DNA from: Sipunculus nudus
Taxonomy: Eukaryota > Annelida > Sipuncula > Golfingiida > Sipunculidae
Assembly: GCA_026874595.1 (NCBI GenBank)
Contig: CM049310.1
Span: 30,381,558 to 30,445,557, forward strand
DNA: 64,000 bases
Direction of reading: 5' to 3'
Made by a program: the position numbers and the translations under genes. The notes under the pieces are model-generated. The model made no database searches. It had not been told where the DNA came from and worked only from the letters and a program-made list of their open reading frames with translations. Shown piece by piece: positions 12,601 to 59,941 of the stretch; the stretch's first letter is position 1, and every line of letters starts with the position of its first letter.

Positions 12601-15600
12601 CAATACAAAGTGTTCAATTATTCAGTGCTATCTGATGATCAAGTATTTAATATCTAATTGTCCATCCCACCTAGGGTGCAGATTTTCCCTCTTTATGTTA
12701 GATACCAGCCAGAAGTTTTGACAAGTAGCTCTCCTTTAAAAATAAGGTGTTTTTTATTCTGGTATCATTTGTAATATGAATTGGTACCATTTATAAAATG
12801 CAAGCAAAATCAAGGAATTCATGTCCCCCCCCCCCCCCTTCCGCCTTCAAGTCCAGGATGATTTCAAAGTGTGTGATGACAAGGTACAAATAGTTTTAAC
12901 CATGCTCAAAGATGGCAGTACCTCGCAGTAAATGCCAAAAAATTCAAGTATTTTATGTCCACTGCTAGTGACACCTGTTGGTGATTAGTGAAATTTAATG
13001 TGCTGATTCATCATATAAAAAAATGTAATATCATATTGTATTATATCTTGTACCACAAACACTCAAAAAACCATTCCAAACCAAGGTAAGCATGAGAGCA
13101 ATCACTGACCCGAATTTGAATGTAATCAGATAAAATTTAGGAAAGTTATCGCACGGACACGAAAACCTGACGGAGGGACAGACAGACAGATGGAGGGACA
13201 GACAGACAAACCCAAATCAATGTCCCCCGTTCCTTCCAAGGAAGTGGAGGACACTAAAATATGACTCTCTTGCTTTATTTATTGGACCTGAACATCAAGC
13301 ACCAATCATCACTGACAGAAGTTGTTATTGTCATGGGAAAATTCTATTTCATCAAAAATAAGTTTCCAGGAAATTCACAAATTAAATTTACATCCTATTT
13401 TCCCTGCATGTCAGTATACACAGAGAGTGCTAGACACTAGACTGACCTTCTGCCTGGCATCCCACTTGGCCTTGGCAGAAGCATCTGCCTTCTTCCCTGG
13501 AAGTCTGGAATGCTGTTCTTTACAGAAGTTGATGTGACGCTGGGCGGCTGTTTCATTGAACCTTCTACCACAGTACTCACACTGGACGTAATCTGAATTA
13601 CAAACAAAATGTCCAGATTAATGAAAACCCAGCATCCATTCTTTATTTTACCTGATCCAACATGCCTGGTCTGGAGGTATCCATATACAAAAGGGTAGAG
13701 ATTAGAGGCAAATTTGACAGGAAATGTATGCAAATCAGCCACTGCATGTGACAACTCCAAACTCACCTTTATACAGGGCTATCTTTTTTAGATTATGAAC
13801 CTTTTAAGTCATCTTGGAAATACAAAAAATCCTGGAATACTTTAATATTAGGCTCCACTGAAAATTAATGTTCAGAAGATTTCATGATTAAATTATTTTT
13901 TAACTATAAATGTATCATTACCTCGGTAAAATGGAAAGAACTTTTTCTCCAAGTAAATAGAAAATAATTTTAATCTACCCAAGGAATTTCCATGAATATC
14001 TAGTTCACCTGGATTAATAGTTGGTGGCGGTGGTGGAGGTAAAGGTCCGCCGGTTTCCACAGCTTTCTTGTAGCCCCTCGCAGCACGGATAGTGTTGACA
14101 AACTCTTCATGTTTCTGCCTCCAGTTGTGCTTCTTGTTCTCAGCCGCAGCAATCTTTGCGGACTGAAGGAATAAGGAGACTACATATTTATGTTTTGGAA
14201 ATCCATTTTGTGTAAGCTTATTTACATCTCCATATACAAGGAAAAATTCAATGTGGTATTTAAATAACTTGATGTGTCGGAACGACACGAATGCCCCTGC
14301 CTTGGGCAAATTAGAAACATTCGTTAAATTTTGTAAATTTTTTTTAAGTTCGTGAGGTGTCATATGGTCAAAAGTAGGTCAACAAGGGCAATCAGGCCAG
14401 TATCTGCCGGCATTGTGAAAAAAAGTCCATACATGTGCATTTTTCATAAAAATTTCTGTCTTTCATGAAATTTTCTATGTTCAGGATCTCTATCATATGG
14501 TAAAAAATAGGTCAACTAGGATGAAACACGAACTCGATCTGTAACTAGTCATTATCTGCCCACACACCAAAAATCAGGCCAATATCTGCAGGCATTGCGA
14601 AAAAAAGTCTGTAAATGTGTATTTGTCATGAAAATTTCTATTTTTCATGAAATTTTCTAAGTTTAGGAGCCATAAACTTACAAAAGTAGGTCAACCGGGA
14701 CAAAACGCGAACTTGATCTGTAACTGATCATTATCTGCCCACACACCAAAAATCAGGGTGGTATATGCAGGCATTGCGAAAAAAAATCTGTACATGTGTA
14801 TTTGTCATGAACATTTACATTTTTCATGAAATTTTCTAAGTTAAGGAGCCGTAAAACAGTCAAAAGTAGGTCAACCGGGACGAAACGCGAACTCGATCTG
14901 TAACTGGTCAATATATCTGCCCACACACCAAAAATCAGGCCAATATCTGCAGGCATTGCAAAAAAAAAATCTGTACATGTGTATTTGTCATGAAAATTTA
15001 TATTTTTCATGAAATATTATAAGTTAAGGAGCCGTAAACAGTCAAAAGTAGATCAATCAGGACGAAACGCGAACTCGATCTGTAACTGGTCATTATCTGC
15101 CTACACACCAAAAATCAGGCCAATATCTGCAGGCATTGCAAAAAAAAGTCCGTACATGTGTGTTTGTCATGAAAATTTCTATTTTTCATGAAATTTTCTA
15201 AGTTTAGGAGCCGTAAAACGGCCAAAAGTAGGTCAACCGGGATGAAACGCGAACTCGATCTGTAACTGGTCATTATCTGCCCACACACCAAAAATCAGGC
15301 CAATATCTGCAGGGGTTGCGAAAAAAAGTCCGTACAACTGTTTGATTTCGGAATGACGGAATGACGGACATGGGTAAAACTATATGCCCCGGCCACTTTG
15401 TGGCGGGGGCATAAAAATATTTTATATATGTATCATATCCTGATTCAAAGCATGGGCAAAGTATCCTGATATATATTGTATCGTGAGATATTGTATAACT
15501 ACCATCCCAGTTCTTAATGTATAAGAAGGCTTATCAAAATATAAAAGGAGATACTTCATGATACTTCTAGAAAGTTTGTATCTTGCATAACTTTGTAGAG

Positions 15601-24409: not shown

Positions 24410-26985
24410 CTGGTTTAACACATTGGTATGTTCACAGTTCCACTAGAGAACCCTTGTTAACACACTGGTATGTTCACAGTCACACCAGTGAACCCTTGTT
24501 AACACACTGGTATGTTCACAGTCACACCAGTGAACCCTTATTAACACACTGGTATGTTAACAGTCCCACTCGTGAACCCTGGATAAACACACTGGTATGT
24601 TCACAGTCCCACTAGTCAACCCTTGTTAACACACTGGTATGTTCACAGTCACACCAGTGAACCCTTATTAACACACTGGTATGTTCAAAGTCCCACTAGT
24701 GAACCCTGGATAAACACACTGGTATGTTCACAGTCCCACTAGTCAACCCTTGTTAACACACTGGTATGTTCACAGTCCCACCAGTGAACCCTTGTTAACA
24801 CACTGGTATGTTCAAAGTCCCACTAGTCATCCCTGGTTTAACACACTGGTATGTTAACAGTCCCACTAGTCAACCCTGGTTAACACACTGGTATGTAAAC
24901 AGTCCCACTAGTCAACCCTCGTTAACACACAGGAATGTTCACAGTCCCACTAGTTAACACTTGTTAACACACTGGTATTTTCACAGTCCCACTAGTCAAC
25001 CCTTGTTAACACACAGGTATGTTCAGAGTCCAAATAGTCAACACTTGTTAACACACTGGTATTTTCACAGTCCCACTAGTCAACCCTTGTTAACACAAAG
25101 GTATGTTCACAGTCCCACTAGTCAACCCTTGTTAACACATTGGTATGTTCAGAGTCCAACTTGTCAACCCTTGTTAACACAATGGTATGTTCACAGTCCC
25201 ACTAGTCAACCCTTGTTAACACACGGGGTTGTTCACAGTCCCACTAGTGTGAAAAATTTGTTAACACACTGGTATATTCACAGTCCCACTAGTCAAGCCT
25301 TGTTAACACACTGGTATGTTCACTGTCCCACTAGTGAACCCTTGTTAACACACTGGTATATTCACAGTCCCACTAGTCAACCCTAGTTAACACACTGGGT
25401 TGTTAACAGTCCCACTAGTCAACCCTTGTTAACACATTGGTATGTTCAGAGTCCCACTAGTCAAGCCTTGTTAACACAATGGTATGTTCATAGTCCCACT
25501 AGTCAACCCTTGTTAACACACTGGTATGTTCACAGTCACACCAGTGAACCCTTGTTAACACACTGGTATGTTCACAGTCACACCAGTGAACCCTTATTAA
25601 CACACTGGTATGTTAACAGTCCCACTCGTGAACCCTGGATAAACACACTGGTATGTTCACAGTCCCACTAGTCAACCCTTGTTAACACACTGGTATGTTC
25701 ACAGTCACACCAGTGAACCCTTATTAACACACTGGTATGTTCAAAGTCCCACTAGTGAACCCTGGATAAACACACTGGTATGTTCACAGTCCCACTAGTC
25801 AACCCTTGTTAACACACTGGTATGTTCACAGTCCCACCAGTGAACCCTTGTTAACACACTGGTATGTTCAAAGTCCCACTAGTCAGCCCTGGTTTAACAC
25901 ACTGGTATGTTAACAGTCCCACTAGTCAACCCTGGTTAACACACTGGTATGTAAACAGTCCCACTAGTCAACCCTCGTTAACACACAGGAATGTTCACAG
26001 TCCCACTAGTTAACACTTGTTAACACACTGGTATTTTCACAGTCCCACTAGTCAACCCTTGTTAACACACAGGTATGTTCAGAGTCCAAATAGTCAACAC
26101 TTGTTAACACACTGGTATTTTCACAGTCCCACTAGTCAACCCTTGTTAACACAAAGGTATGTTCACAGTCCCACTAGTCAACCCTTGTTAACACATTGGT
26201 ATGTTCAGAGTCCAACTTGTCAACCCTTGTTAACACAATGGTATGTTCACAGTCCCACTAGTCAACCCTTGTTAACACACGGGGTTGTTCACAGTCCCAC
26301 TAGTGTGAAAAATTTGTTAACACACTGGTATATTCACAGTCCCACTAGTCAACCCTTGTTAACACACTGGTATGTTCACTGTCCCACTAGTGAACCCTTG
26401 TTAACACACTGGTATATTCACAGTCCCACTAGTCAACCCTAGTTAACACACTGGGTTGTTCACAGTCCCACTAGTCAACCCTTGTTAACACATTGGTATG
26501 TTCAGAGTCCCACTAGTCAAGCCTTGTTAACACAATGGTATGTTCATAGTCCCACTAGTCAACCCTTGTTAACACACTGGGTTGTTCACAGTCCCACTAG
26601 TGAACCCTTGTTGACACACTGGTATATTCACAGTCCCACTAGTCAACCCTTGTTAACACACCGGTATGTTCACAGTCCCACTAGTCAACCCTTGTTAACA
26701 CACTGGTATATTCACAGTCCCATTAGTGAACCCTTGTTAACACACTGGTATGTTCACAGTCCCACTAGTGAACCCTTGTTAACACACAGGTATGTTCACA
26801 GTCCCACTAGTGAACCCTTGTTAACACACTGGTATATTCATAGTCCCACTAGTCAACCCTTGTTAACACACTGGTATGTCACAGTCCTATTAGTGAACCC
26901 TGGTTATCACAATGATATGTTCACAGTCCCACTAGTGAACCCTTGTTAACACACTGGTATGTTCACAGTCCTACTAGTCAACCCT
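24410..26985. repeat. 42-bp tandem array with 1,056-bp higher-order duplication
   Basis: About 60 copies of a 42-bp unit (CACACTGGTATGTTCACAGT + CCCACTAGTGAACCCTTGTTAA). The block from about 24,456 to 25,510 is repeated at +1,056 bp with only a few substitutions, keeping the same variant units in the same order. Since 42 is a multiple of three, frames of 141-155 residues stay open with a 14-residue period (LLTHWYVHSPTSQP). They have no start context, splice support or recognisable domain. Confidence 0.92.
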
Positions 26986-36600: not shown

Positions 36601-37029
36601 GCCAGTTCTTGCGAAATCGTATTTAATTGAATGAAACCTGGGTTTTGATCACTTTGCAACAATTTTTATATAAATTGATTCCACAGAACGATGTCGTGCC
36701 TATGTTAGTTAATATACTTTGACAGTTATAAACAGTCAATAAGATCGTCGATCGTGAAGTTTTATGATTCAGATTGGAACGGTGTTAATGCAAATGTCCA
36801 ATAAAGATATACAGAAGCCTAGCTGAAATTATGAGAGTAAATATATAAAATAGGATTATGTTGTTTTATTTTTTCTATGGTAATTTTATTTTACTTTACA
36901 CACAACTTGTTAAAAGATGTGCCACCACAAATTTCATTAAGAACTGTTATAATAATTAATTTTTTAAATATGACCTGTAAATTCAGAGGGTCAGAATTGG
37001 AAAACTAAATTAGCATCTGAATACACTTA

Positions 37030-37603
37030 TGTTACACAAATGCCCTACCCCTGGTATTACCGGGGGAACACCCGATGACATCATGGCTACCAGGGGAGAT
37101 TCCCTTGGGGTTAATGCCACCTGATGCAGATCTCTTGGGTTGACCAATGACCACTGAGCTGGCGATGCAGGGCTGGAAAGACTGATACATGAGCCATGTA
37201 CCAGCCCAGCCCAGTCTCTTAGGCCCGGGACTTGTGAACACTGCAGATGTGCGGGTGTTTGTCCCACAGGGCTTTGAGCCTCTCTGGTCCATCTTAGCAG
37301 AAGCTGAGATTATAGGGACCAGGGAAACCTGGACAGCCACATTCTGGTTCGTATTTGTATATAATTGTTATGTAATATCAGTCAAGGGCATGATTTTTTA
37401 TGTACCGGTAATCATGTAGTTTCTTTTGTAATAAATTCTTGTGGCCACTAATTGACTTTTATCTGCCTTAGTCAATATTGTCTGTTGGATGCATGGAGCA
37501 GTATTTGTAAATTCAGCCACGCTACCCAAACTAATAAATTACAAAAACCCCATCCCTGTAATACTGTTTATCAGAATTAGGGGTGGGGCCCATTTTTGTT
37601 TCA
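37030..37603 (+). repeat. Left LTR of the non-coding retroelement
   Basis: Matches 40,715-41,288 at an offset of 3,685 bp. Contains an AATAAA at 37,430-37,435. Short open frames on both strands (for example minus 37,032-37,340) are shadows present in both LTRs. Confidence 0.85.
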
Positions 37604-39119
37604 TTGGCGGCAGCGGTTTTTCGGCCCATGCTTTCATTCTTTTATGTTAGCTTTTATGTCGGTTTAGCTTAGATGAGTTGCTGATTTTAATATATTCTTG
37701 TTGCACTGTTGACAGTTAATTTAACTGTATAAAACTGCTATTCTTTGGTTTTACTTAAAGTATCTTCCCTAACAGGCTAGTCTGCTCCTATGCTTTTGTT
37801 CTTTAAGGCCACACCAATCAAGTTTTCTTAGCACAGATCTGCCTTGATTGGCCACCTTGCTATGCATGTTTCACTATAGTAATTTAAAAATCAGGATCAC
37901 TTTTGCATCTCTTTAAACTTCATACCGTTCTGTTTGTGGCTTCACATTTTCTGTGATTCATTTTGGCCTCCTCCATTTTCACTCGGTGTAAAATTTCTGT
38001 TTTTGTTCCTTCAACCATGCATGGTTTTCCTTGCTTGGCCTTATTTTCATCAGTTACTTGTTGCTTTCTGCCAGTGGCTTGTCTCACGGGATCTTGTTTC
38101 ATCTCCTGGTGATACAGCCTCGGGCTCCGTCCACACGGGGTCATATGGCCATTGGTTTCTGGTTACATTCTCTGCTTAGTTCAACCCCTTGACATTGTCT
38201 TTCCTGATTACTAAGACACTTCACAGTAATTTAGTCTTGCTGGTCTGTGGCATGTCCTTTTGTGAAACTAAACCAGGGAGGTATCCTTGGGTTGTTAGGT
38301 CAGCTCTAGGGAGAGCTGTATTTTCAAAGGGAGGGGGTAAGGGCCATACACTTTGCAGATGGCATCGTCACATGGCTTTGGGGTGTTTCCCACCTCATTA
38401 AGTAGCAGGAATGCTGCTGAGACATTTGTGGACAGACAAGCAGCTGTCCCTGTGTCCTCTCCCCCATGATCAGGGGGGGTCTGCCGTGCAGTGCCCACTG
38501 GCTGTCATGGGATCAAGTGACACCATGTGTGATACACGTGTAGTCTTTGTCACCCAGCCTCTATACCTGGTAATGTTTCTACTCTGTATGGAATAATCCA
38601 TAACACAGAAATGTGCTACCTGGTGGACAGAGATGCTGACAAGAACCTGTTGTTGTTGTGAAACAGGAAAAAGTAAAAGTAATATAAATTTGTGTAATAT
38701 TTTAGTTGTAAGTTATGGGTTAGTAAATATTATTTAGAATTAAAGTTGTCAGAAACAAACATTTTACACTTTCGATATATAAGAAGTTATATACCATGGA
38801 CTTGTTATCTTTCAAATGTTCTATGTATGTTGGTCATTATATACCTTGAAGTATAAATAAATATCTTTATCTGCTAGTATGCCTAATATCATGTATGACT
38901 TGCTTCAGGGATTACTATTGCTTTCTTATTTGTAATGTAAACATATAATTTGTCAATGTAATGCATGCTGGTCATTCTTCTTTTAGTGCTGTAAATGTTA
39001 TGTTAGTATTTTATATACCTGTGTTGAACTCAAAGAAATTCCTTGAGTTAACTGTAGAATAATGTTATTTTATGGTAGCATCGTATGTTCATATATGTAT
39101 GTATACGTGATAATGAAAG

Positions 39120-39140
39120 TATATATATATATATATATAA
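39120..39140. repeat. (TA)n tract inside the LTR element
   Basis: First of three TA runs in the interior; the longer ones are at 39,275-39,326 and 40,019-40,058. They separate copies of the hairpin motif. Confidence 0.85.
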
Positions 39141-39152
39141 TAAAGGAAACAG

Positions 39153-39271
39153 AGCTGCACGAACCATGTAATTTAGCCTGGGGGCATGACCTATAAACCC
39201 CCCTTGCACTGACTTGGGCGTGACGGCAATGTATATATATATAAATTTGAATGAATGGAATAGCTATACAC

Positions 39272-39328
<57 letters not shown>

Positions 39329-39980
39329 TTTATGTTCATGTTAAGGTATATATACATGTATATCACTGAAGATCTATAGTAAAATGGGGCTGCTCACAAC
39401 GGTCTGTTCTAAGGGCATGCAAAATTTTAAAACCCCTCCCAGAACTGAAGCAGCAGATCCTTACATGATGTTATAGTATCAATGAGCTACTGCTTGCACT
39501 GGCCTATGAAAGGGCATGCTGAAAATTAAACCCCTTTCAGACCCGGTGCAGCAGTAGCTTCTACATGTGTGCATGTGTATGTGTATCTGTACATGTATAT
39601 ATATATTGAATATATTTATGTATGCTATTTGATCAGGGCATAACCAAAGTCCTCATTGACAATTTTGAGTGCTGTGCTTGCGACCTCATTGTTTTTAATG
39701 TTTATAGTGGAACTATTTAGAAATGAACTCTCTAGTTGCATTTATTACAGATATTTTGTTTTTAGAATTTTGATTATATCTTAATATGTATGTGTATGTG
39801 CATTTAGATTTAGGAGCAGGGCTGCGCGCATCGGTCTGTACAGGGCATGACGGATTTAAACCCCTAGCAGGCTTGGTGCGGTGGCGCCTTTAAACATTTA
39901 AATTAAGAGTTGCTGTTTGTATCGGCCATACTGAGGGCATGAAAATAATACCCCTCCCAGAGCCGATACAGCAGTAACTC
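39153..39980 (+). ncRNA. Five copies of a structured hairpin motif inside the LTR element
   Basis: GGGCATG followed 10-17 nt later by an AAACCCCT-like string occurs at 39182, 39413, 39512, 39843 and 39934. In copy 3 the outer arms 39,486-39,502 (GCTACTGCTTGCACTGG) and 39,543-39,558 (CCGGTGCAGCAGTAGC) pair over 16 bp with one bulged T. The inner arms TGAAAGGG (39,507) and CCCTTTCA (39,532) pair perfectly. Copy 5 pairs GTTGCTGTTTGTATCGGC (39,909) with GCCGATACAGCAGTAAC (39,962), with the bulged T in the same place. At least five stem positions differ between the two copies by pair-preserving changes. Copies 2 and 4 fold less well; copy 1 is diverged. The covariation suggests selection on RNA or single-stranded structure; function unknown. 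Confidence 0.5.
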
Positions 39981-40011
39981 GTATGTGTATGCATATGTGT
40001 GTATGTGTATG

Positions 40012-40061
<50 letters not shown>

Positions 40062-40714
40062 CATATATTTCAATTTTATGTACTTATCAGGTATAAATAT
40101 GTACATGATAAGATCCTTAACTATGTGCTGTAGACTTGTATTAGTTCTTAGCGGTAATCTGATGGTTAATCATAAGTCCGGTGACTCTGTGTCACAAGTG
40201 TGCCAGTGATCCGGGAAATTTATTATTCATCAGATTAAATTTCATGTTTTATACTCTAGGGTGTTACCCCATCATTTATATTACCAGCTTATTTAAGTAT
40301 GTTTATCCTTGTATAGGATAATGTAAACCTTTGTAGTTTTTGTTGTGTTTGAGTATTATGACTTTATTAGCTTTATCATCTGTGTGGTGAAGATATATTG
40401 ATATTAGGCTGATCTTAATCCTCTTATTTTTTGTATATGTGACCAATGTATTTTTATCAAATTGTAACTCGTGCATGCCTTATGATTAAACTTGTTCCTG
40501 TATTTTGTATTTCCGCCACTGTAAACATGTGTTTATTGTGGATATTGGCACTTTACAAATATAGGTAGTAAATAAATAATGATATTTTTTTATGTTTAAC
40601 TGAGCCATAGGTTGATGGCCTGTTGGCCCCGAATAGACTAGATGTGGTTAAATTTTATTAATGGTTATTAATAAGGTGAGCTCGCGAGGACGCATCGCTC
40701 TAGGGTGGGGATAG

Positions 40715-41288
40715 TGTTACACAAATGCCCTACCCCTGGTATTACCGGGGGAACACCCGATGACATCATGGCTACCAGGGGAGATTCCCTTGGGGTTAAT
40801 GCCACCTGATGCAGATCTCTTGGGTTGACCAATGACCACTGAGCTGGCGATGCAGGGCTGGAAAGACTGATACATGAGCCATGTACCAGCCCAGCCCAGT
40901 CTCTTAGGCCCGGGACTTGTGAACACTGCAGATGTGCGGGTGTTTGTCCCACAGGGCTTTGAGCCTCTCTGGTCCATCTTAGCAGAAGCTGAGATTATAG
41001 GGACCAGGGAAACCTGGACAGCCACATTCTGGTTCGTATTTGTATATAATTGTTATGTAATATCAGTCAAGGGCATGATTTTTTATGTACCGGTAATCAT
41101 GTAGTTTCTTTTGTAATAAATTCTTGTGGCCACTAATTGACTTTTATCTGCCTTAGTCAATATTGTCTGTTGGATGCATGGAGCAGTATTTGTAAATTCA
41201 GCCACGCTACCCAAACTAATAAATTACAAAAACCCCATCCCTGTAATACTGTTTATCAGAATTAGGGGTGGGGCCCATTTTTGTTTCA
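40715..41288 (+). repeat. Right LTR of the non-coding retroelement
   Basis: Matches the left LTR. Immediately preceded by the purine-rich tract AGGGTGGGGATAG expected to prime plus-strand synthesis. Confidence 0.85.
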
Positions 41289-41292
41289 CTTA

Positions 41293-44200
41293 ACAGTAGG
41301 GCCTATATATAACTTGAATATCGCATTCTTGTCATAATGTAACATGTCACATTTAAAGTTTATATATGAACTGTTTTTTTCCTTCTTTATTTTTAATAAG
41401 AATTATGAATGATCAGACTATACAATAAATGTTCCTGTTACAGTCTCAGCTATGGTACTGGTAATAAAATCTGCATTTGGCTTGAACTGAATTTTTCAGC
41501 AATGAATGAAATTTTACACACACAACATTTTTCCCATTCCATTAGATCTGTATACACAGTAGTATAAAAATGTACATTACAAGTTACATTAAGACTTGAC
41601 ATATATTTATATCTTTTTATATGATTTAAAAACAGTAAATTAAACTATCTTGTCAGCTTAAATAATGGATCTGGCTCCCAGGAATACGAAACGGAATTGA
41701 AACGGAATTTGGTGATGAATGAAACGGAAAAGCCTTGTTTTTGAAACGGAAAATCATTGGCTCTAGACCGGATTCTATACCTGGGCCAAAAACATTTATT
41801 AGGGGTCCACCCTGGTCCGCGTATAGGTAGATTGATAATTTGTGGAAAGCTGCGTATCCGCGTGCGGATCCGCGTTTAGGGAGATCCCGACAACTGGGTT
41901 GTTAGCGAGCATTGTCATGTGAAATGTGGAACATTTTCCAAATAACATTTAGAAAAATTGCATTAAATCACTACAAGATGCTGTTTTATTTCGATTAAAA
42001 ATATATTCAATCAATACCTGTGCACTGGACCTCATTTACTGCTTAAATGGTTTCATGCCACTTACCATCAAACTCCATTTTGTTTTCTGTAGCAACCGGA
42101 GATCCGCAGTGAATAATAAATCAGCAGAAAATAAAAAAAAATATGCCCTTAGTTTCGAACAGCTCTAAAATATCAAATCCTTAAATATAATCCACCTCAG
42201 ATAAATAATATTTAAACATTAATTTTGTGAAAGACTGGAATTAGAATGTTTGATTGTTTGATGGGAGGGTGCCCACATGAAGGTCAAGGCTACTCCTGTC
42301 ACTGGCTGCCAAAAGGAGGGGGAAGCCAGAAGATAATTATATTGATCTGTATAGACCGTTGTGTCAGGTGCTGTCAGAGGATATATCCACGAAAACCAGC
42401 TATTATTAAATAAGGTATGGTACGAAGCGAACAGAAGTCATATATTGATTTTCAGAAATATTTAAAGATGTTTATAAATTTACACTGTGATAAGGTTGAA
42501 TGACTGAGCCAGTCTCACCAGACAGTCTCTGGGGTAAATCTCTAAAAGAAGTCACTGTGACTCTGTACACTCATGATTTCTCAAATATTGTAGTTTGGTG
42601 TCTACAACCTTAGTAGCTAGTGTTTAATTATTTTGGATCTGTTCAATCTGATTGTATCTGGCATTGTGGATCACAGTGTCTACATTTTTCATATCATACC
42701 TTTATTTACATTATTCAGTCCGTCAAACAGTATTACTTATATTTATTCACTCCAGCAAATTCAGGGGCAAGACTATAGAATACTTCACACATCTCCCTGA
42801 GTGTGAGATCAGAAAAAAGTTTTTATACCTAGCTGCTTGAAAAGTTGTCTCTTGACTTCAATACCACTTATTATTATCTGCCTCTAATTTCTTCATTACA
42901 TTAGTTATAATCATCATATCATCTGTCTGGATACACACATACCATGTCAAGACAGTACATGAGTGATTCTATGTTTGCTCAAATTCAGGTTATTCTTTGC
43001 ACAATAATAAGATGTTATAATAATGATATTATCAAGTATTTGCCTCGTAGGTTGCTGCAGTCTTGCAGCGCTGACATATATAGTAAACAATACAAGCGCT
43101 GCAGCCTCTGGCGGGGAGAGTCTATACTATCTAAGTTTGTACAGATCCATACAGACCCTCAGACACGTATATGCCTTGTGAAGCGTGAGGACACCAAACA
43201 AACCCCACATATTATAATTGTTACAGATGCTTAGACTCCGTTGGGACCAAAACTTTTGCTGGATGATCAGCATTAATAAAGTATGGGCACTTACTCTGGA
43301 TGAAGTCAGATATTGCATCGTCTCCGTCTCGCCGATGGCGCTTTTCGGTTGGAACAACCAATAGGAATCATTGACAACAAGCGATGTATGATGGGAAGGA
43401 TGCTTATGAAAATATGGTCTATCCTAGTGCACGGCACTGGCATTCCTGGGAAAAGCCCCCCTGAATTCATCTTTTGCATAGATTGCCCACCTAATTTGCA
43501 TGGGATTCCTTTTCCGGCGGTGTCCAGTTGGCATGCAACATCTGAACCCCGGCAGTTCAAAGGATAAAAAAACATTTACAGGCGCACATAAAAGTGATAT
43601 ATCGATTTAATTTGATACATAAAAAGTTTATTTCTATATATAAATACAAGATTGTTTCTCTATCGCACAACAAGCAGTGGTAAGTCATGTTACAGGTCCT
43701 TCCATGAACGGCAGGGTGAACTCTCACGGCCAGACGGTCGGACTCCATATCACAGATAAATGGAGTCCGTACGTGGCGGACTACCTCTTAGGTAGCCCAA
43801 TTTAATCAGACCCAATATTATTAGGCCCTGCCATATACTGAGTATGATAGCCATATGGTTTCTACAATATAAGCCATAGATTATGCATTGGATCCATTGC
43901 ATCTTCTGTTACTGCCGGTTTACTGCCTAACAACAAGCCACAGGATTACACTATTTTAACACTATTAAGTATGTGTTTCATGGTTTTGATAGCAACTAAA
44001 ATTAAACTTGGATCAGCATTTTTAAACATTTACTGACCTTTAAACTAGAGCCATATCAGCGAGTTTACTAGGGACGGAGAAGAACAGTCGTATGGGCGCA
44101 CTTGAATACCTCACTGGGAGCCTTGCTGACTCGAGGGACGGGGAGCCAGAGTTTTGTTCATTTTGTTTAAAGGAAGTGTGATGTGCTGGCATGGGGTTAT

Positions 44201-51000: not shown

Positions 51001-54000
51001 GCTGATCATATATTGTTGACGCCAGAAGCCATTTATGTGTAGACTTGCTCTCTGTCTCACAACCACCAGGGCCACCTTTTGGGTTTTTTCTAAACTATAA
51101 TGTCCAAAATTTTCATATTTTTGCCCAATATTTTAAAATTTAACCCATTGACATACACTTTTTTGTCTATCAATAAGATTGATATTTTATTCTGCATGTT
51201 TTTTAGAATATTATGAAAAATACAATGGTCAGTTTTCTAAAATATGTAATTTTTGTTTCCCCCTTAGTTATAATATCATATAACAAGTGACCCATGGGTC
51301 ATGACGCTCAGCTGACTGGGAAGAGATTCGCAAAAGGAAATTTTATCATTAGAATGGTAGTATATACCCATTCAACTGAAGCATCAAACAGATTAACCAA
51401 CAGGCCAAGATTTAGTCTGTATTTATATATCTCAAAAATAGAGAAAAATGTGTAAACTTTTAAAACTAGAATACGGGTAACCGACAAGTGACTACATGTA
51501 TCTGCCAAAATCGGATAGTGAGGCATGGATTGAGTGGCAAGGGGAAATAGAGTGAGGTATGTTGCATATTAGCATGGATGTCTGCAGCCTAAATGTGTAT
51601 GTAGGTTGTGCCACCTACCACAAATCCAGAAAGCTGTTCAAGTTGTATACACCTGCAAAATTTTAGGCAGAAAAGTCAAACCACTACATGTATATGAGCG
51701 ATTTTTGCCCATGGCAGACAAACAGAGAAACACTGTGCAAAAATCTTTGCAGGTAACCCCTCCAGTTTTGTGTATGATAAAGACCTATGTGAGATCTAAA
51801 CATATGCACAATTTTGGCCCAATCGGTCAAATGGTTCCTGAGATATGAGCTTGGATGTGTGCAGCGTTAACTAGAATGTAAGTGGCGCCACCTGTCATAA
51901 AATCAAGAAAGCTGTCCACGATGTATAAACCTGCAAAATTTTAGGCAGTTATGTCGAACCACTACAGAGAAATGAGTGATTTTAGGCCACGGCAGACTAA
52001 CAGACAGACGCTGTGCAAACATTGTTACAGGTGGCGCCACCATTTTTTGTGTTTGTTACAGAGCTATCAAAGGGCTACATTTGTATAAATTTTATTTCCT
52101 GATCGGTCAAACGGTTCCCAAGATATAAGCTTGGATGTCATCAGCGTGAACGTGAACGTAGGTGGCGCCACCTATCATAAAAAAATCAAGAAAGCTATCC
52201 TGGATGTATACGCATGACGAATTTCAGGTGAATTAGTCAATTCACTGCAGAGATATGAGTGATTTTAACCCAAGGCAGATGAACAGATGGACACTGTGCA
52301 AACATGGTTACAGGTGGCGCCACCATTTTTTGTGTATGTTATAAAGCAATCCAAGGGCTACATTTGTATCAATTTAATTCCTGATCGGTCAAATGGTTCC
52401 CGAGATATGAGGGTTTATGAGTGGAAACAGACCCACAAATGGACACTGGAGAGTGAAAGAGAGGAAAGGTCAGAGGTCAACGCAAATTGGTTAGGCACCA
52501 GTTCACATGTGACCCGATAATAGGTGTAAGTTTGGGAAAAATCGGTCCATTAGTCTCCGAGGAGCTCTCTGGAAACGAACGCCGCCGCGGTGGAGGAACT
52601 CGGTCGAAAAAAAAAAACATAGTATCCGCAAAACTTCGTTTTGGCGGATACAAAAATACAGGTGGCTCCACCAGTCTGCAGAAACTAATAAAAACACTTA
52701 ATGGTCAATATCCATGCAAAAAATCATGGTGATCTCTGCATTAGTTGTTCAGATACTTCAGTTTTTGTATCAAATTGTCCATTATTCTGAGGGATACTTC
52801 GGAGTCCTATAGCTTGAAGGATATGGGTAACAGAGACCTAATTTCAAGTTTCCACAGGCACCTTTCATGGGCCTCCTTGCATGACAAGAATGAAGATTCT
52901 AGGTCCAGTTGTTGCGATTTGTACCCTGTTGACAGATAACCACATCTTTAAAGGTCTCAAAAAAAAAGAAAAAAAATTCGTAAATATTTGAAAAAAAATA
53001 GAGGTGGCACACCCAGTCTGCAGAAACTGATGGAACAGGTCATGATCAATATGTATGCCGAAAATCATGACCATCAGTGTTGTAGTTATTGAAATACTGC
53101 AGTTTTTGTATCAAATTTTCCATTATTCTGGCTGGGGGGGGGGGGGGTATTTTGGACCCATACAGCTTAAAGAATATGGGTAACAGAGACCTAATTTCAA
53201 GTTTCCATGGAGACTTTTCATGGGTCTCCCGTGTGTCAAGAATGAAGATTCTTGGTCCAGTTTTTATGATTTGTGCCCTGTTAACAGATGTTCATATCTT
53301 TAAAGGTCTCAAAAATACAGAAAAATTTCGTAAAAAAAAACGAACAAATACAGGTGGTGCCACCAGTCTGCAGAAACTTGTGAAACACTCCATGATCAAT
53401 ATCCATGCAAACAATTATGGTTATCTCTGCATTAGTTGTTCAGATACTTTAGCTTTTGTATCAAATTTTCCATTATTCTGAGCTGTACTTTGGAGTGCCA
53501 TAGCTCAAAGGATATGGGTAACAGAGACCAAATTTCAGGTTTCCATGGAGACTTATCATGGGTCTCCCTGTGTGTCAAGAACGAAGATTCTAGGTCCAGT
53601 CGTTACGATTTGTACCCTGTTGACAGATAACTACATCCTTAAAGGTCTCAAAAATGGAGAAAACAATTCCTGAACATTGAAAAAGTCAGGTGGCGCCACC
53701 AGTCTGCACAAACTGATGAAACATCTCATGATCAATATGTATGTCAAAAATCATGACCATCAGTGATGTAGTTAATGAGATATTGAAGTTTTTGTATGAA
53801 ATTTTTGACTATTCTGGGGGGTAATTTTGGGCCCCATAGCTCGAAGGATATGGGTAACAGAGACCTAATTTCTGGTTTCCATGGAGACTTTTCATAGGTC
53901 TCTCCGTGTGTCGAAAATGAAGATTCTAGGTCCAGTCGTTACGATTTGTGCCACGCTAACAGATGACAGCATCCTCAAAGGTCTCAAAAATAGAGGAAAA

Positions 54001-57000
54001 AATCGTAAAAAATCAAACAGTACAGGTGGCGCCACCAGTCTGCAGGAACTGATCGAACATCTCATGATCAATATGTATGCCAAAAATGAAGACCATCAGT
54101 GATGTAGTTATTGAAATATTGAAGTTTTTGTATGAAATTTTTTACTATTCTGGGGGGTACTTTGGGGCCCCATAGCTCGAAGGATATGGGTAACAGAGAC
54201 CTAATTTCTGGTTTCCAAGGTGATTTTTCATGGACCTCTCAGTGTGTCAAGAATTAAGATTCTAAGTCCAGTCTTTATGATTTGTGCCTTGTTAACAGAT
54301 GTTCACATTTTTAAAGGTCTCAAAAATAGAGAAAAAAATTCGTAAAAAATCGAAAAATACAGGTGGCGCCACCAGTCTGCAGGAAGTGATGTAACATCTC
54401 ATGATCAATATGTATGCCAAAAATCATGACCATCAGTCAAGTAGTTAATGAGATATTGAAGTTTTTGTATGAAATTTTTGACTTTTCTGGGGGGTACTTT
54501 GGGGCCACATAGCTCGAAGGATATGGGTAACAGAGACCTAATTTCTGGTTTCCAAGGAGATTTTTTATGGACCTCTCAGAATCCCAAGTTACAAGGTTCT
54601 AGGTCCAGCGGTTACGATTTGTGCCTGGTTAACGGACGGACAGACGGACAGACGGACAACGGACAAAGAGTGATCGCTATAGCTCAGATGACTTTCAGTC
54701 AGCTGAGCTAAAAACCCACGACAAGTGTCAATTTTCAGCCCCATATACTGCAAAAATAAGCACATTGACCCCCAAATTTCATTTCATAATTTTACAAAGT
54801 ATGTCTTGTAGATATCATGTGCAAACTATCTAAGAAATTCCATTGGTTTTAAGGATCACAAGTCATTAGTCATGTCTCTGATGTTAAGGATCACAAGTCA
54901 TAAGTCATGTCTCTGGTTTTAAGGATCACAAGTCATAAGTCATGTCTCTGATGTTAAGGATCACAAGCCATTAGTCATGTCTCTGATGTTAAGGATCACA
55001 AGTCATTAGTCATGTCTCTGGTTTTAAGGATCACAAGTCATTAGTCATGTCCCTGATGTTAAGGATCACAAGTCATTAGTCATGTCTCTGGTTTTAAGGA
55101 TCACAAGTCATTAGTCATGTCTCTGGTTTTAAGGATCACAGGTCATTAGTCATGTCCCTGATGTTAAGGATCACAAGTCATTAGTCATGTCTCTGGTTTT
55201 AAGGATCACAAGTCATTAGTCATGTCTCTGCTTTTAAGGATCACAAGTTATTAGTCATGTCTCTGGTTTTAAGGATCACAGGTCATTAGTCATGTCCCTG
55301 ATGTTAAGGATCACAAGTCATTAGTCATGTCTCTGGTTTTAAGGATCACAAGTCATTAGTCATGTCTCTGCTTTTAAGGATCACAAGTCATTTGTCATGT
55401 CTCTGATGTAAAGGATCACAAGCCATTAGTCATGTCTCTGATGTAAAGGATCACAAGGCATTAGTCATGTCTCTGATGTTAAGGATCACAAGTCATTAGT
55501 CATGTTGTAATGTTAACCTTTTGCCTTCTTTTGCAGGTTTGAAGCATTGGTTGAACGAGAGTGGCTGCAGGCTGGTCATCAATTTGCAGATAGATGTGCT
55601 AAATCAGCGTTTGCAATAACACGTAGCCGTAGAGAGGCTCCGGTTTTCCTGTTGTTTCTTGACTGTGTATGGCAGGTATGCACTGATTCCTCAAAATATT
55701 TTAATTTTGAAATCCTAATGTCTTATGGATATAAAAAAGTGGTAACATTCCAAACTTCATTTGCTTGAAATATATTATGACCAGATTTTAAATATGCTGA
55801 GTAAGTGTCTTGATTTTTTATACATAACTCAGACTTTTAAACCAGAAAACAACAGTTGTTACTTTAAAACTGTAATATATTGTAATTGACATATATAACT
55901 AATTATGCTTCAGCTATAAAATTCTTAATTTAATTTGATGATCACATATCTGAACAAAATCAGTTATCTTTAGTCCTGAGACAGAGTTTTGATATAAACC
56001 TTATCTTTTGTAGATCTGGCAGCAGTTTCCTTGTTCCTTTGAATTTAATGAAGAATTCCTCATACTCTTTGTGAAACATGCTTATGCATCCCAGTTTGGT
56101 AAATATGTTTCTTAATTTCTATCTTCTTTACCACAATGATGCATGACACATGTTTTGTGTCTGTACATTTATCCTTTCCCAAACTTGTATAACTGTCAGA
56201 TGATCAGCAACCCAAGTAACTAGTTGTCATGCACTGAAGATGTCAACACAAATCGGTTTGTTGAATCAGATTGAGACAAAGAAAATAGTCCATGAATGTT
56301 GGCTCATAAATGTGTGCACATTTTTATGCCCCCGCCACAAAGTGGCTGGGGCATATAATTTTACCCATGTCCGTCCTTCCGTCCTTCCGAAATCAAACAG
56401 TTGTACAGACTTTTTTTCGCAATGCCTGCAGATATTGGCCTGATTTTTGGTGTGTGGGCAGATAATGACCAGTTACAGATCGAGTTCACGTTTCGTCCAA
56501 GTTGACCTACTTTTGACTGTTTTACGGCTCCTAAACGTAGAAAATTTCATGAAAAATAGAAATTTTCATGACAAATACACATGTACAGACTTTTTTTCGC
56601 AATGCCTGCAGATATTGGCCTGATTTTTAGTGTGTGGGCGGATAATGACCAGTTACAGATCGAATTTGTGTATTGTCCTGGTTGACCTACTTTTGACCAT
56701 TTCACCGCTCTTTAACTTAGAAAATTTCACGAAAAATAGAAATTTTTATGACAAATACACATGTACAGACTTTTTTTCGCAATGCCTATAGATATTGGCC
56801 TGATTTTTGGTGTGTATGCAGATGTTGACTAGTTACAGATTGAGTTGGCATTTCGTCTCCATTGACCTACTTTTGACCGTTTTACGGCTCCTAAACTTAG
56901 AAAATTTCATGAAAAATAGAAATTTTCATGACAAATACACATGTACAGACTTCTTTTTGCAATGCCAGCAGATATTGGCCTGATTTTGTGAGTGTGGGCA

Positions 57001-59941
57001 GATAATGACCTGTTACAGATTGAGTTGGCATTTCGTCCCGATTGACCTACTTTTGACATTTTTACGGCTCCTTAACTTAGAATATTTCATGAAAAATAGA
57101 AATTTTGATGACAAATACACATGTATGGATTTTTTTTCCCAATGCCTGCAGATATTGGCATGATTTTTGGTGTGTATGCAGATATTGACTAGTTACAGGT
57201 CAGTTGACCTACTTTTGACCGTTTAACAGCTCCTAAACATAGAAAATTTCATGAAAAATATAAATTTTTATGAAAAATGCACATATATGGATTTTTTTTC
57301 ACAATGCCTGCAGACACTGGCCTGATTTTTGGTGTGTTGCTTGATAATGACCCGTTACAGATCAAGTTTGCATTTTGCCCTTGTTGACCTACTTTTGACC
57401 ATACAACACCTCCTGAACTTAAAAATTTTTACAAAATTTAACTTATGTTTCTAATTTGCCCCAGGCGGGGGCATTCGTGTCGTTATGACACATCTAGTTA
57501 AATATGATTTAATAAATGTTTAAACATATGCAGCACCTTACATACACTGAAAGATTTTTCTTAACTAGATTTTCAGTAATATGGGTTGTTAAAGGGATAC
57601 ATAACAGTAAGAAAAACCATGTGAGACTTTCAGGAAATTATATACCAATTTTTTATCCTGTTCATTTTAATTAATACAGATATTGCTTTTACATAATCAT
57701 GTGTATTTATTTTATTGTAAGGTACTTTCATTTGTAATAATGAGATGGAGAGGAGGAAACTTGGGGTAGAAAAGAAGACCATTTCCCTCTGGTGGGTATG
57801 AATGAGTTACCACATTGATGGTATCCATAGTAACAGTTAATACAACAAAAAGAACAATTGCTGCAATTTAAGTTCAAGATGTTGAATGAAAACTGAAATT
57901 AAAATCAAATTTTGTAAGAGGTGAAAGTTACTGTGATTTAAATGAGTTTTAAAAAGGTTTTAAGTGAATTAAGAACCTACCCCCTGATAAAACTAGGTAA
58001 GCTTTTCCGTAAAGCTGAAGAAACTTGTATTTCAGCCAAATGCTACTGTCCTTTCAATCAATTTTGATAAAAAAACACTTGTTCAGTGTTTGCAGTTTTA
58101 ATGAGAGATAATGTTAAAAACATATTTTTATGGACATACATTGTTAGCAGTACGATTAAAATATGTATATAAAGAAGTTCCATTAAGACTACCAGTGAAC
58201 ACTAATACCAGTACATGAAACCATATCTGTCTCTCACTGAAAATCCCGCCAGTGTTGGAGGAATATTTCATTCTTTCTTTTCTTTGGAATTGGTGTTTTA
58301 CTTGTGTGTATTTAGGGATGATATCAAATTCACCCCAATGTGTGTGTATTCCATAGGTCATACATCAATAGGCCTGATGTTCTTGGGCAGTACCTGAACC
58401 CTCTTTATGAACCAAACCCCACCGTCATTTGGCCGTCAGTGGCTCCACAGAGTTTGGTAAGCATTAGCACTACCCAAAGATAATTATCATAATTATCTAG
58501 TCTCTACTCAATGTGTACATCTGTAGATGATGTAGATTGTACTGTTCACAGCTGTAGATTATGTAGATTGTACTGTGTACATCTGTAGATGATGGAGATT
58601 GTATTGTTTAGATCTGTAGATGATGTTGATTGTATTGTTTACATCTGTAGATGCTGTGGACAGGGCTGTACCAGCAGTGGCAGCAGCACCAGCGAGGTCA
58701 GGATGAGATCTGGGAGCAGCTGGTCCATATCAAACAGACAGACAACCAGCTCAAGTCAAGGGTGGTCAAACTCAGACGGTTAGTACACTATAATATGTGC
58801 ACTATAATATAATCCAAAATATGGCAAGACACTTCAGAATGACTGCGATATATCCATCACTGAAGAACAGAGATATAGCAGTTCCATCTGATGACGTCAG
58901 TCAATGCGACGTCATATATCATCATTCTTTGTTACATGACTATTGTCTTGTAAATAGCTTTCCCAACCATGGGCTTGGAAGGCCTTCTGTGTAGGACCGT
59001 TTTGGGGCCTCATTATCATAATTAGGTTGAAAAGCAGAGCATATGGGCTGTTGTAGTATGTTCAATTATGACCACTTTTGGCCGGTCCCACGGATGGTCT
59101 TATTACACAGGTTTCTCTGTAATTGTTACCATATCAAGCACCAAATGTTGTTTATTATGGGGGAAGGTGAAGGTCACAAAGTCTGACCTACAGAAAGTTA
59201 ACATGTGCTGCTTCATGCCTGTGATCCAACCTAGAATTTAATTCTGTCTAAGTGGAAGGTCCAAATTGAGTTACACTGATAACAAAATTGTCCCTCTGTC
59301 AAGACCCATTTCTGCTAGTTCAAGGAGACAGACCAAGAGGCACAGATATGTTAAGGGTATATATAGACTGATAATGATATTGCTTATCTGGCAGGTGTCA
59401 TTGAAATTATTTTGAAATATTTCCTGTTAATAAAAATTGATTCTTATAACATATAAACAATGACAACAAAACCCTTATCATCTGCATTTGTATCTCCTCT
59501 TGGCCAGGGTGGTTCATCAAGTAATCAGCCTTTACGGTCTGTCTGTCTCTCATCCTGTCTGTCTGTCTCTCATCCTGTCTGTCTGTCTCTCAGCTATTTA
59601 TATGCCAAAGATATCACAGAAACTGTTTCTCAAATTGACTTCTAATTAAGAAGGCAGGTATACCTTATGAGTTTCTTCACCCATATTTTACGTTAAAACT
59701 TTTTAAATTTTTATTTTTAGTTTTGTCATTTGAAAAATGGTGTGTTTGATAAAATTTTTATCAATGCACCAACTGATATAACTGGTTTCAAATTGAATTA
59801 TGTGCGCCAGATATTTAATTGTTGTGGCTTAAACATGTCTACCTGTATTTCAGGCAACTGGTTACCCTAGAGAAAGAAGCGATAGAGAAGGGGTTGATAC
59901 CACTAGCACAGAACCCAGCACAGCAGCAGCCAGGAGTGTAA
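45015..59941 (+). CDS. MTMR9: Myotubularin-related protein 9 (catalytically inactive), complete, 14 coding exons
   Basis: Exons: 45,015-45,161; 45,722-45,881; 46,557-46,708; 47,134-47,262; 47,880-48,036; 48,787-48,891; 49,499-49,624; 49,732-49,834; 55,537-55,675; 56,014-56,098; 57,722-57,791; 58,357-58,456; 58,651-58,778; 59,854-59,941. Phases agree at every junction, giving 562 residues (human about 549). It starts MEFAEFIQAPKVDGVKLLRP (PH-GRAM, about 1-100). The inactive phosphatase fold follows (about 120-495), with RFPVLSYFHK, SQPMTGPSGKRCKDDERLIN and HYPQWRRIH. The signature loop, residues 332-340, is HGAEGLDTT: the catalytic Cys and Arg of HC-x5-R are gone, as in all MTMR9. A Gln-rich helical C-terminus (about 500-550) fits the coiled coil by which MTMR9 binds MTMR6/7/8 and raises their activity on PI3P and PI(3,5)P2. 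Introns are GT-AG except possibly intron 5 (GC-AG). Confidence 0.96.
45566..45590 (+). repeat. Solo pogo-like terminal inverted repeat
   Basis: TA followed by CAGTAAAACCTTGCCTAACG and AACA in MTMR9 intron 1 resembles the end of pogo/Tigger elements. The partner end was not found. Confidence 0.35.
48200..48600 (-). repeat. Diverged relic of the 280-bp family in MTMR9 intron 5
   Basis: GGTGGTGCCACCTAC, CAGGTGACGTCACC and phrases such as CATGTCCATAAATCTTGGAT recall the unit wording and spacing of the arrays at 1-1,430 and 51.5-52.4 kb, but strongly decayed. Confidence 0.4.
50025..50519. repeat. 35-bp minisatellite, left half
   Basis: Units of GGATCACAAGTCATTAGTCA + TGTCTCTGGTTTTAA (35 bp), degenerate at the left and regular at the right. 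Continues in phase at 54,842-55,505. Confidence 0.9.
51477..52420 (-). repeat. 280-bp array, family E, reverse copy
   Basis: On the minus strand this reproduces the 1-1,460 array. GTGGCGCCACC cores lie near 51,881, 52,032, 52,161 and 52,314, giving a period of about 281 bp with two cores per unit. The right-end wording TACCCGTATTCTAG and a decayed hairpin are at 51,465-51,495. About three units. Confidence 0.8.
52622..52651. repeat. Terminal-type hairpin F
   Basis: GTATCCGCAAAAC, TTC, GTTTTGGCGGATAC: a 13-bp stem with one bulged G, followed by AAAAATA. It sits exactly between the family-E array and the 336-bp array, as expected of an element end. Confidence 0.6.
52655..54715 (+). mobile_element. 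336-350-bp tandem array ending in the family A hairpin
   Basis: GGTGGCGCCACCAGTCTGCA-type starts lie at 52661, 53003, 53353, 53689, 54025 and 54362 (periods 342, 350, 336, 336, 337). The units end with a GGACAGACGGACAGACGGAC microsatellite and the hairpin at 54,680-54,710 (TAGCTCAGATGAC ... GTCAGCTGAGCTA). A 14-base G run is at 53,134-53,147. Open frames of up to 130 residues are shadows. Probably a non-autonomous element sharing its 3' terminus with family A. Confidence 0.8.
54842..55505. repeat. 35-bp minisatellite, right half
   Basis: About 19 units of the same 35-bp repeat as at 50,025-50,519. Ends 31 bp before exon 9 of MTMR9. Confidence 0.92.
56326..57500 (-). mobile_element. Family C element, copy 2, in MTMR9 intron 10
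   Basis: Reverse orientation relative to 14,268-15,415. The hairpin end is at 56,326-56,354 (ATGCCCCCGCCAC, AAA, GTGGCTGGGGCAT), followed by CCGTCCTTCCGTCCTTCCG. Five or six 180-bp units follow (GCAGATA near 56427, 56607, 56787, 56967, 57147). The opposite end at 57,460-57,500 reads, on the minus strand, ACTAGATGTGTCATAACGAC and GAATGCCCCCGCCTGGGGCA. Confidence 0.82.
58521..58650 (+). repeat. 31-bp repeat that multiplies the exon-13 splice acceptor
   Basis: CTGTAG occurs at 58521, 58552, 58583, 58614 and 58645, exactly every 31 bp. The fifth copy is the acceptor of MTMR9 exon 13 (ACATCTGTAG|ATGCTG). The sequence after each upstream AG (ATGATGTAGATTGTACTGT-like) resembles the exon start ATGCTGTGGACAGGGCTGT, so the unit seems derived from the intron-exon junction. 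Use of an upstream AG would shift the frame by 31 nt per unit. Confidence 0.85.
59537..59593. repeat. 20-bp pyrimidine-rich tandem repeat
   Basis: About 2.7 copies of CTGTCTGTCTGTCTCTCATC in MTMR9 intron 13, ending CTCTCAG, a decoy-like acceptor well upstream of the true one at 59,853. Confidence 0.8.

Follow-up and report, generated by a model that had tools for sequence, protein, structure and literature searches.

The 64,000-nucleotide stretch of the Sipunculus nudus genome analyzed here (contig CM049310.1, positions 30,381,558 to 30,445,557; hereafter the window, from whose first letter all positions are counted) contains a short motif that recurs five times inside a long terminal repeat (LTR) element. 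The copies were originally predicted to be hairpins that keep their pairing while their sequence changes. This raises the question of whether the structure is under selection, whether such selection acts on RNA or on a DNA hairpin, and what the structure would do for an element that encodes no protein. To our knowledge, the RNA requirements of protein-less LTR elements for mobilization have been studied mainly in yeast and plants. The reading that we favor, and hold to be fairly probable on the evidence of sequence, is that the hairpins are redundant repeats of a single structured RNA module, carried in an array by the sense transcript of a LARD-like LTR retrotransposon that encodes no protein.

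The setting is an LTR retrotransposon of 4259 bp (4.26 kb) at 37030-41288, the non-coding interior of which encloses all five motif copies. Its 5′ LTR (37030..37603, + strand) and 3′ LTR (40715..41288, + strand) are each 574 bp long, read TGTTAC...GTTTCA, and are 100% identical to one another. They are flanked by a CTTA target-site duplication at 37026..37029 on the left and 41289..41292 on the right, to which no strand applies. The position of the primer-binding site (PBS), immediately 3′ of the 5′ LTR, is occupied by TTGGCGGCAGCGGTT (37604..37618, + strand), a candidate to which no tRNA match was assigned; a TTGGCGGCAGCGGTT-like sequence is found behind the 5′ LTR in five other copies of the element, in two of them with a single base change. 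A polypurine tract (PPT), AGGGTGGGGATAG (40702..40714, + strand), adjoins the 3′ LTR. The element contains no stop-to-stop open reading frame of 120 amino acids or longer, and its six-frame scan against Pfam returned no match at an E value of 1. Together with the identical LTRs, these results uphold the non-coding LTR element that the original prediction had given as the setting of the motif.

The element is most likely a LARD-like, non-autonomous, protein-less LTR retrotransposon. It combines an LTR pair and a target-site duplication with a lack of coding capacity and with a core of conserved RNA secondary structure, the signal for which is weak inside copy lineages. The barley LARD Sukkula is described in similar terms, as an LTR element without gene products that has a core domain; Sukkula belongs to the grasses, whereas the present element resides in an animal genome, has 574-bp LTRs, and carries a discrete hairpin five times. 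Known LARD LTRs are longer. Because plant LARDs and TRIMs are reported to specify well-conserved RNA structures (PMC7215508), we regard the element as a variant of a kind already known. Protein-less LTR elements described from animals include biv-TRIM, reported to have no clear PBS and to contain inverted repeats within its inner domain (PMC6934838), and the animal Helenus TRIMs, reported to have 4-bp target-site duplications (PMC10886601). TRIMs are described as shorter than 1 kb (PMC6934838), and identity with them was rejected because the 4259-bp element exceeds this limit of about 1 kb. Identity with TRIMp3 elements (Helenus, Ajax), which have a tRNA- or 5S-like LTR sequence, was likewise rejected: neither tRNA nor 5S rRNA was detected in the window (0 tRNA genes by ARAGORN, 0 Rfam families at gathering score). 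The element was not classified as a retrozyme either, since no hammerhead was found at the Rfam gathering score or among the 23 matches listed to E 10 in 38400-41500.

The heptamer GGGCATG is located at 39182, 39413, 39512, 39843, and 39935, in all five cases on the + strand, which agrees with the number of copies predicted. The pattern GGGCATGN{3,20}AACCCC, which represents the GGGCATG...AACCCC motif, has four exact matches in the window, compared with 0.02 expected from shuffles. The fifth copy (c5) reads AATACCCCT, has AATACCCC, and hence lies outside these matches. Two copies, c3 (39480..39561, + strand) and c5 (39903..39981, + strand), had been proposed to form long outer arms that share the location of a bulged T, and both possess an 18-bp outer stem (about 18 to 19 bp in all) with the bulged T at the equivalent position. 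Their z scores of -8.1 and -7.7 are the two lowest among 696 windows of 85 nt covering the whole element on both strands, and both fall on the + strand. Taken alone, the other three copies fold weakly better or no better than shuffles: c1 (39154..39227, + strand, z -2.0) is diverged and has an outer stem of its own, with the GGGCATG...AAACCCC loop in common; c2 (39380..39463, + strand, z -0.1) has the weakest, mismatched stem; and the stem of c4 (39812..39891, + strand, z -1.3) is rich in G-U. The proposed five-hairpin motif is thus striking by itself in two copies and not in the remaining three. The arrangement in two dimers about 425 to 430 bp apart was recovered, with spacings of 430 bp from c2 to c4 and 423 bp from c3 to c5, and the array is placed 0.7 to 1.5 kb upstream of the 3′ LTR.

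In the predicted module, a long, bulged outer stem is followed by a UCUG/CAGA helix of 4 bp; an asymmetric internal loop separates this helix from an AGGG/CCCU stem, which is capped by the apical loop CAUG(N)AAAC. The apical loops are about 17 nt long, and CAUG, present in those of c1 to c5, is extended to GCAUGC in c2 and c3. It is the arms that vary, the loop and the internal loop being conserved. In one genomic copy of c1 (locus L034), about 17 consecutive C residues enlarge the loop.

The original prediction named no described family for this motif, and the Rfam search of the window left it unmatched at the gathering score; a limited literature survey found no published description of the hairpin. 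In an Rfam scan of 38400-41500 by E value, every match fell below its gathering score; most were miRNA models on TA/TG microsatellites, the rest included other sub-threshold matches, and one miRNA model, mir-BART9, fell on c3 with 18.8 bits where 50 would be required (E 3.9). Hairpins of about 80 nt, including two whose stems are very strong and one with this sub-threshold miRNA match, could be imagined as a small-RNA source, either pre-miRNA-like or as a trigger of siRNA or piRNA. We consider such a role quite improbable, given that conserved loops and variable arms are the reverse of the miRNA pattern, that a conserved mature arm, as required of a pre-miRNA, was not seen, and that the other miRNA matches sit on microsatellites. 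SECIS, hammerhead, twister, and H/ACA structures were considered and dropped for want of Rfam support and of a common core. A pattern scan of IMG/VR produced 28 loci, which were attributed to chance because none had flanks judged to form matching arms, and a 22-mer of the LTR had 0 matches in IMG/VR. An apparent sixth copy, made up of GGGCATG and AAACCCCATCCC in the LTRs of the window, was also treated as chance because a scan of nine other loci, some of them with incomplete LTRs, recovered AAGGGCATGA in just one. The same applies to a covariance-model match at 21064 (E 0.047), in which many pairs are broken.

A search of the window's own assembly (1.43 Gb, 153 contigs) matched the motif region at 12 genomic places, a count that includes two partial ones (C15, C3) and excludes rows consisting of microsatellite only. 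A covariance model built from c2 to c5 (R1) identified 44 hairpins at 12 loci at E 1e-5; the match of c1 to this model is confined to the loop (E 4.1). The set of 49 matches termed A3 includes four antisense and one partial, and the remaining 44 form set A4. The pattern GGGCATGN{3,15}AAACCCCTNNCAG has 27 exact matches genome-wide and 0 for its reversed control; 25 of the matches fall within copies of this element, and the other 2 belong to a related family. At least 42 rows with 86 to 100% identity were obtained with the LTR as the query (40 of 164 candidates scored). Pairs of LTRs diverge by 0 (window), 0.5, 1.6, 0.2, 0.3, and 14.3%, indicating insertions both young and old, with the five copies at 0 to 1.6% being young; 4-bp target duplications accompany four of the five other LTR pairs. 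Of the 30 LTR loci fetched, 16 show nothing but an LTR, and a 4-bp duplication accompanies 13 of the 16, as expected of solo LTRs. Two such LTR-only loci (C7:10470189 and C7:10473577) lie 3.4 kb apart and have the same flanks, which resembles a local solo-LTR duplication. At locus L070 (C5:80340325), an open reading frame read by eye as CCHC-zinc-knuckle-like is situated upstream of the 5′ LTR and may be part of another element.

Comparison of these copies demonstrates that structure is kept while sequence drifts, from one repeat copy to another as well as from one element family to the other. We assembled an alignment of six hand-chosen representatives (A6), one row per position and aligned on sequence only (c2 of L034, c3 of L029, c4 and c5 of L039, and the hairpins B4 and B5 of L088 from the second family), leaving out c1, L087, L090, and L091. 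In this alignment 139 of 155 stem cells are paired and 8 of the 26 pairs are altered on both sides. Its covariation score is 0.346 versus 0.228 after shuffling, with 0 of 500 shuffles reaching it and slid controls at or below 0.133. A larger alignment to the model (A5; 24 rows from 8 loci) has 36 cells changed on both sides versus 15.5 when shuffled. Three pairs occur in three states each, passing through G-U: UA/UG/CG (columns 24-69), GC/GU/AU (columns 22-72), and CG/UG/UA (columns 18-76). Between c3 and c5, 28 of 79 aligned sites differ, and none of 2000 random placements of these changes folds as well; starting from c3, the corresponding numbers are 145 of 2000 for c4 and 735 of 2000 for c2. 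The changes from c2 to c4 do no better than random placement (1548 of 5000).

The second family is represented by L087 and L088, which are 88.7% identical to each other and 66 to 69% identical to the window in this region, and by a third place, L090, which is 94% identical to L087 and also has the hairpin dimer. In L087 and L088, the dimer (B4, B5) precedes the polypurine tract and the start of the 3′ LTR. The 4.6 kb examined of a copy of this family on C7 forms alignments of more than 60 bp with the window element only at 39827-40241, which comprises most of c4, c5, and the fold d1 described below, and at 40648-40731, the PPT region; the 9.6 kb upstream of this copy (L089, L094) yielded no Pfam match in sense frames at E 0.1. 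The still more diverged L091 has two weaker hairpins, with E values of 3e-9 (partial) and 4e-5. Hairpin B4 was kept out of the building of the model and of the outer-stem structure, and it retains 24 of the 26 pairs. When its 12 stem changes are placed randomly on c4, 0 of 5000 placements equal it, and from c5 13 of 5000 do so. B5 is weaker, at 243 of 5000 from c5 and 559 of 5000 from c3.

A second conserved fold, d1 (40155..40237, + strand), has an 11-bp outer stem enclosing a highly conserved core, which is near-identical between the families and has 11 genomic occurrences versus 0 for the reversed control. In a stem table that scored 14 of 17 copies (L035, L038, and L040 being unscorable), all nine scored copies of this element have G-C at one pair, where L091 and L092 have G-U and L087, L088, and L093 have A-U. 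The sense fold of d1 is the lower in energy; its z scores are -3.1 on the + strand and -4.2 on the - strand, and a strand preference is not supported by z because the antisense value is lower. A second d1 is present upstream of the hairpins at the second-family places, at 1.3 to 1.5 kb in two of them and at about 10 kb in the third.

Inside copy lineages the signal is weak, and to that extent the predicted combination of kept structure and drifting sequence applies to comparisons between copies and families. The lineage tallies, which omit the c4 of L040 and those rows of A3 that are antisense or partial, contain 50 stem events versus 39.3 expected, such that stems are not slower than background. 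A conservation test was negative, in that change in the motif regions was not clearly slower than elsewhere in the element, with c3 alone being unchanged (in 5 of the 10 other copies compared): its 82 nt are identical in six element copies including that of the window, and the background of the five others differs from the window by 0.7 to 6.2%. Pair-keeping events amount to 23 of 50 within lineages versus 27% expected (p 0.004), an excess that is not significant for transitions alone (23 of 32, p 0.07); among events found in two or more copies, 5 of 12 keep the pair. The count of compensatory double changes in the c2 to c5 lineages, with the c4 of L040 left out, was zero; the alignment displaces the left arm of that copy, and a literal reading of it would yield two double changes, at columns 10-84 and at columns 12-82. 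Most stem changes within lineages probably arose after insertion, without selection. L050 (C5:67097400-67102300) and L052 (C10:8261500-8266300), the same insertions as L031 and L033, lack the same 13 nt of the c3 stem; they have LTR divergences of 1.6% and 0.3% and different target duplications. The element has thus been mobile with a broken c3, so that this single hairpin is dispensable for mobility, and the array, if functional, must be redundant.

Stem sites near the background rate and a c3 broken in two young insertions would also fit a relic, that is, an old duplicated palindrome that is now neutral, with gene conversion or template switching between its arms keeping them similar. We regard this explanation as unlikely. 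Conversion between arms would be predicted to produce perfect palindromes without a G-U bias, yet G-U outnumbers A-C among stem departures in the six representatives by 23 to 4 (p 0.00016 against one half), where the outer stem was derived from c3 with G-U allowed, a choice that favors G-U in c3 (2 of the 23 G-U and 2 of the 4 A-C cells). Further points against a relic are the pairs retained by B4 in a family of only 66 to 69% identity here and the d1 pair seen as G-C, G-U, and A-U.

The same excess bears on the choice between RNA and DNA, which the original prediction had left undivided. G-U also exceeds A-C in the window copies (12:2). Background transitions per site are nearly strand-symmetric (C>T 0.154, G>A 0.111, A>G 0.065, T>C 0.067). 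The sense fold is more stable than the antisense fold in five of the six representatives, c2 being the exception. The G-U excess and the stability of the sense folds together indicate that the likely target of selection is sense RNA, as opposed to a DNA hairpin or arm conversion. A DNA hairpin or cruciform serving recombination or replication could draw on the near-perfect inverted repeats formed by the arms of c3 and c5; the preferred departure would in that case be G-T, a mismatch in DNA, and with the antisense folds weaker in five of six representatives we judge this explanation very improbable.

If sense RNA is the target, these comparisons suggest that the hairpins may be handles by which proteins of the cell or of another element act on it. 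The element would be transcribed into sense RNA, in which the module is a candidate docking site where host or partner proteins would handle a coding-free, presumably intronless molecule; an array of such sites would serve the RNA of an element that borrows every protein. Our first choice, tentative and resting on analogy, is that the array may promote nuclear export or stabilization of this RNA in the manner of the CTE of SRV-1/MPMV and the RTE of IAP. These are likewise structured RNAs acting in cis, and the reporters described placed them between gag and the 3′ LTR (PMC1363727); the analogy is drawn because the location near the 3′ end and the repetition of our hairpins resemble those reporters. 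The array differs from CTE and RTE in having several small hairpins in place of one large fold, and it has no Rfam match at threshold.

Ranked slightly below export or stabilization is a possible, somewhat doubtful role in packaging or dimerization within the Gag particles of a partner, in which CAUG loops would kiss between two genomic RNAs and the partner's Gag would bind them. Packaging in trans is required for a protein-less element, and the palindrome CAUG is available in c1 to c5 of the window; of the three second-family copies read, two have it in B4. The analogy here is to the kissing-loop and packaging domain of Ty1, whose stem-loops with complementary loop motifs serve RNA handling and whose RNA is modeled as dimerizing via complementary hairpin loops (PMC5454406). 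That domain occupies the first 326 nt of Ty1 RNA, whereas the present array is near the 3′ end, 0.7 to 1.5 kb upstream of the 3′ LTR and not in a 5′ leader. The palindrome is moreover absent from B5 (GGGCCTG in all three copies) and from the B4 of L090 (GGGCAGG), the loops measure about 17 nt, and the stretches examined yielded no autonomous partner element.

A bolder and rather unlikely proposal is that the array and d1 together would be a portable mobilization signal, a new RNA family that recruits export or Gag proteins by itself. If this were true, any RNA carrying the signal between a PBS and a PPT would become a substrate for reverse transcription, and the long persistence of gene-less LARD-type elements in animals would be explained. 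Apart from that proposal, a discrete repeated module that has retained its pairing in two families and is present in young insertions offers a concrete, mutable candidate for the RNA signal that a protein-less element needs in order to be moved by others, and the hairpin model is ready for finding relatives in other genomes.

The window contains several other repeats. Satellite arrays at 1-1400, 51566-52408, and 52652-54633 have units of 280, 283, and 336 bp, and their consensus units have in common the palindrome GGTGGCGCCACC or its core, TGGCGCCACC. At 14390-15336 and 56402-57428, about 42 kb apart, lie two arrays with a unit length of about 180 bp that, judged by eye, resemble mutual reverse complements with a common TTTCATGAAA-type core. 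A 42-bp satellite at 24415-26985 comprises 61 copies and contains repeated open reading frames.
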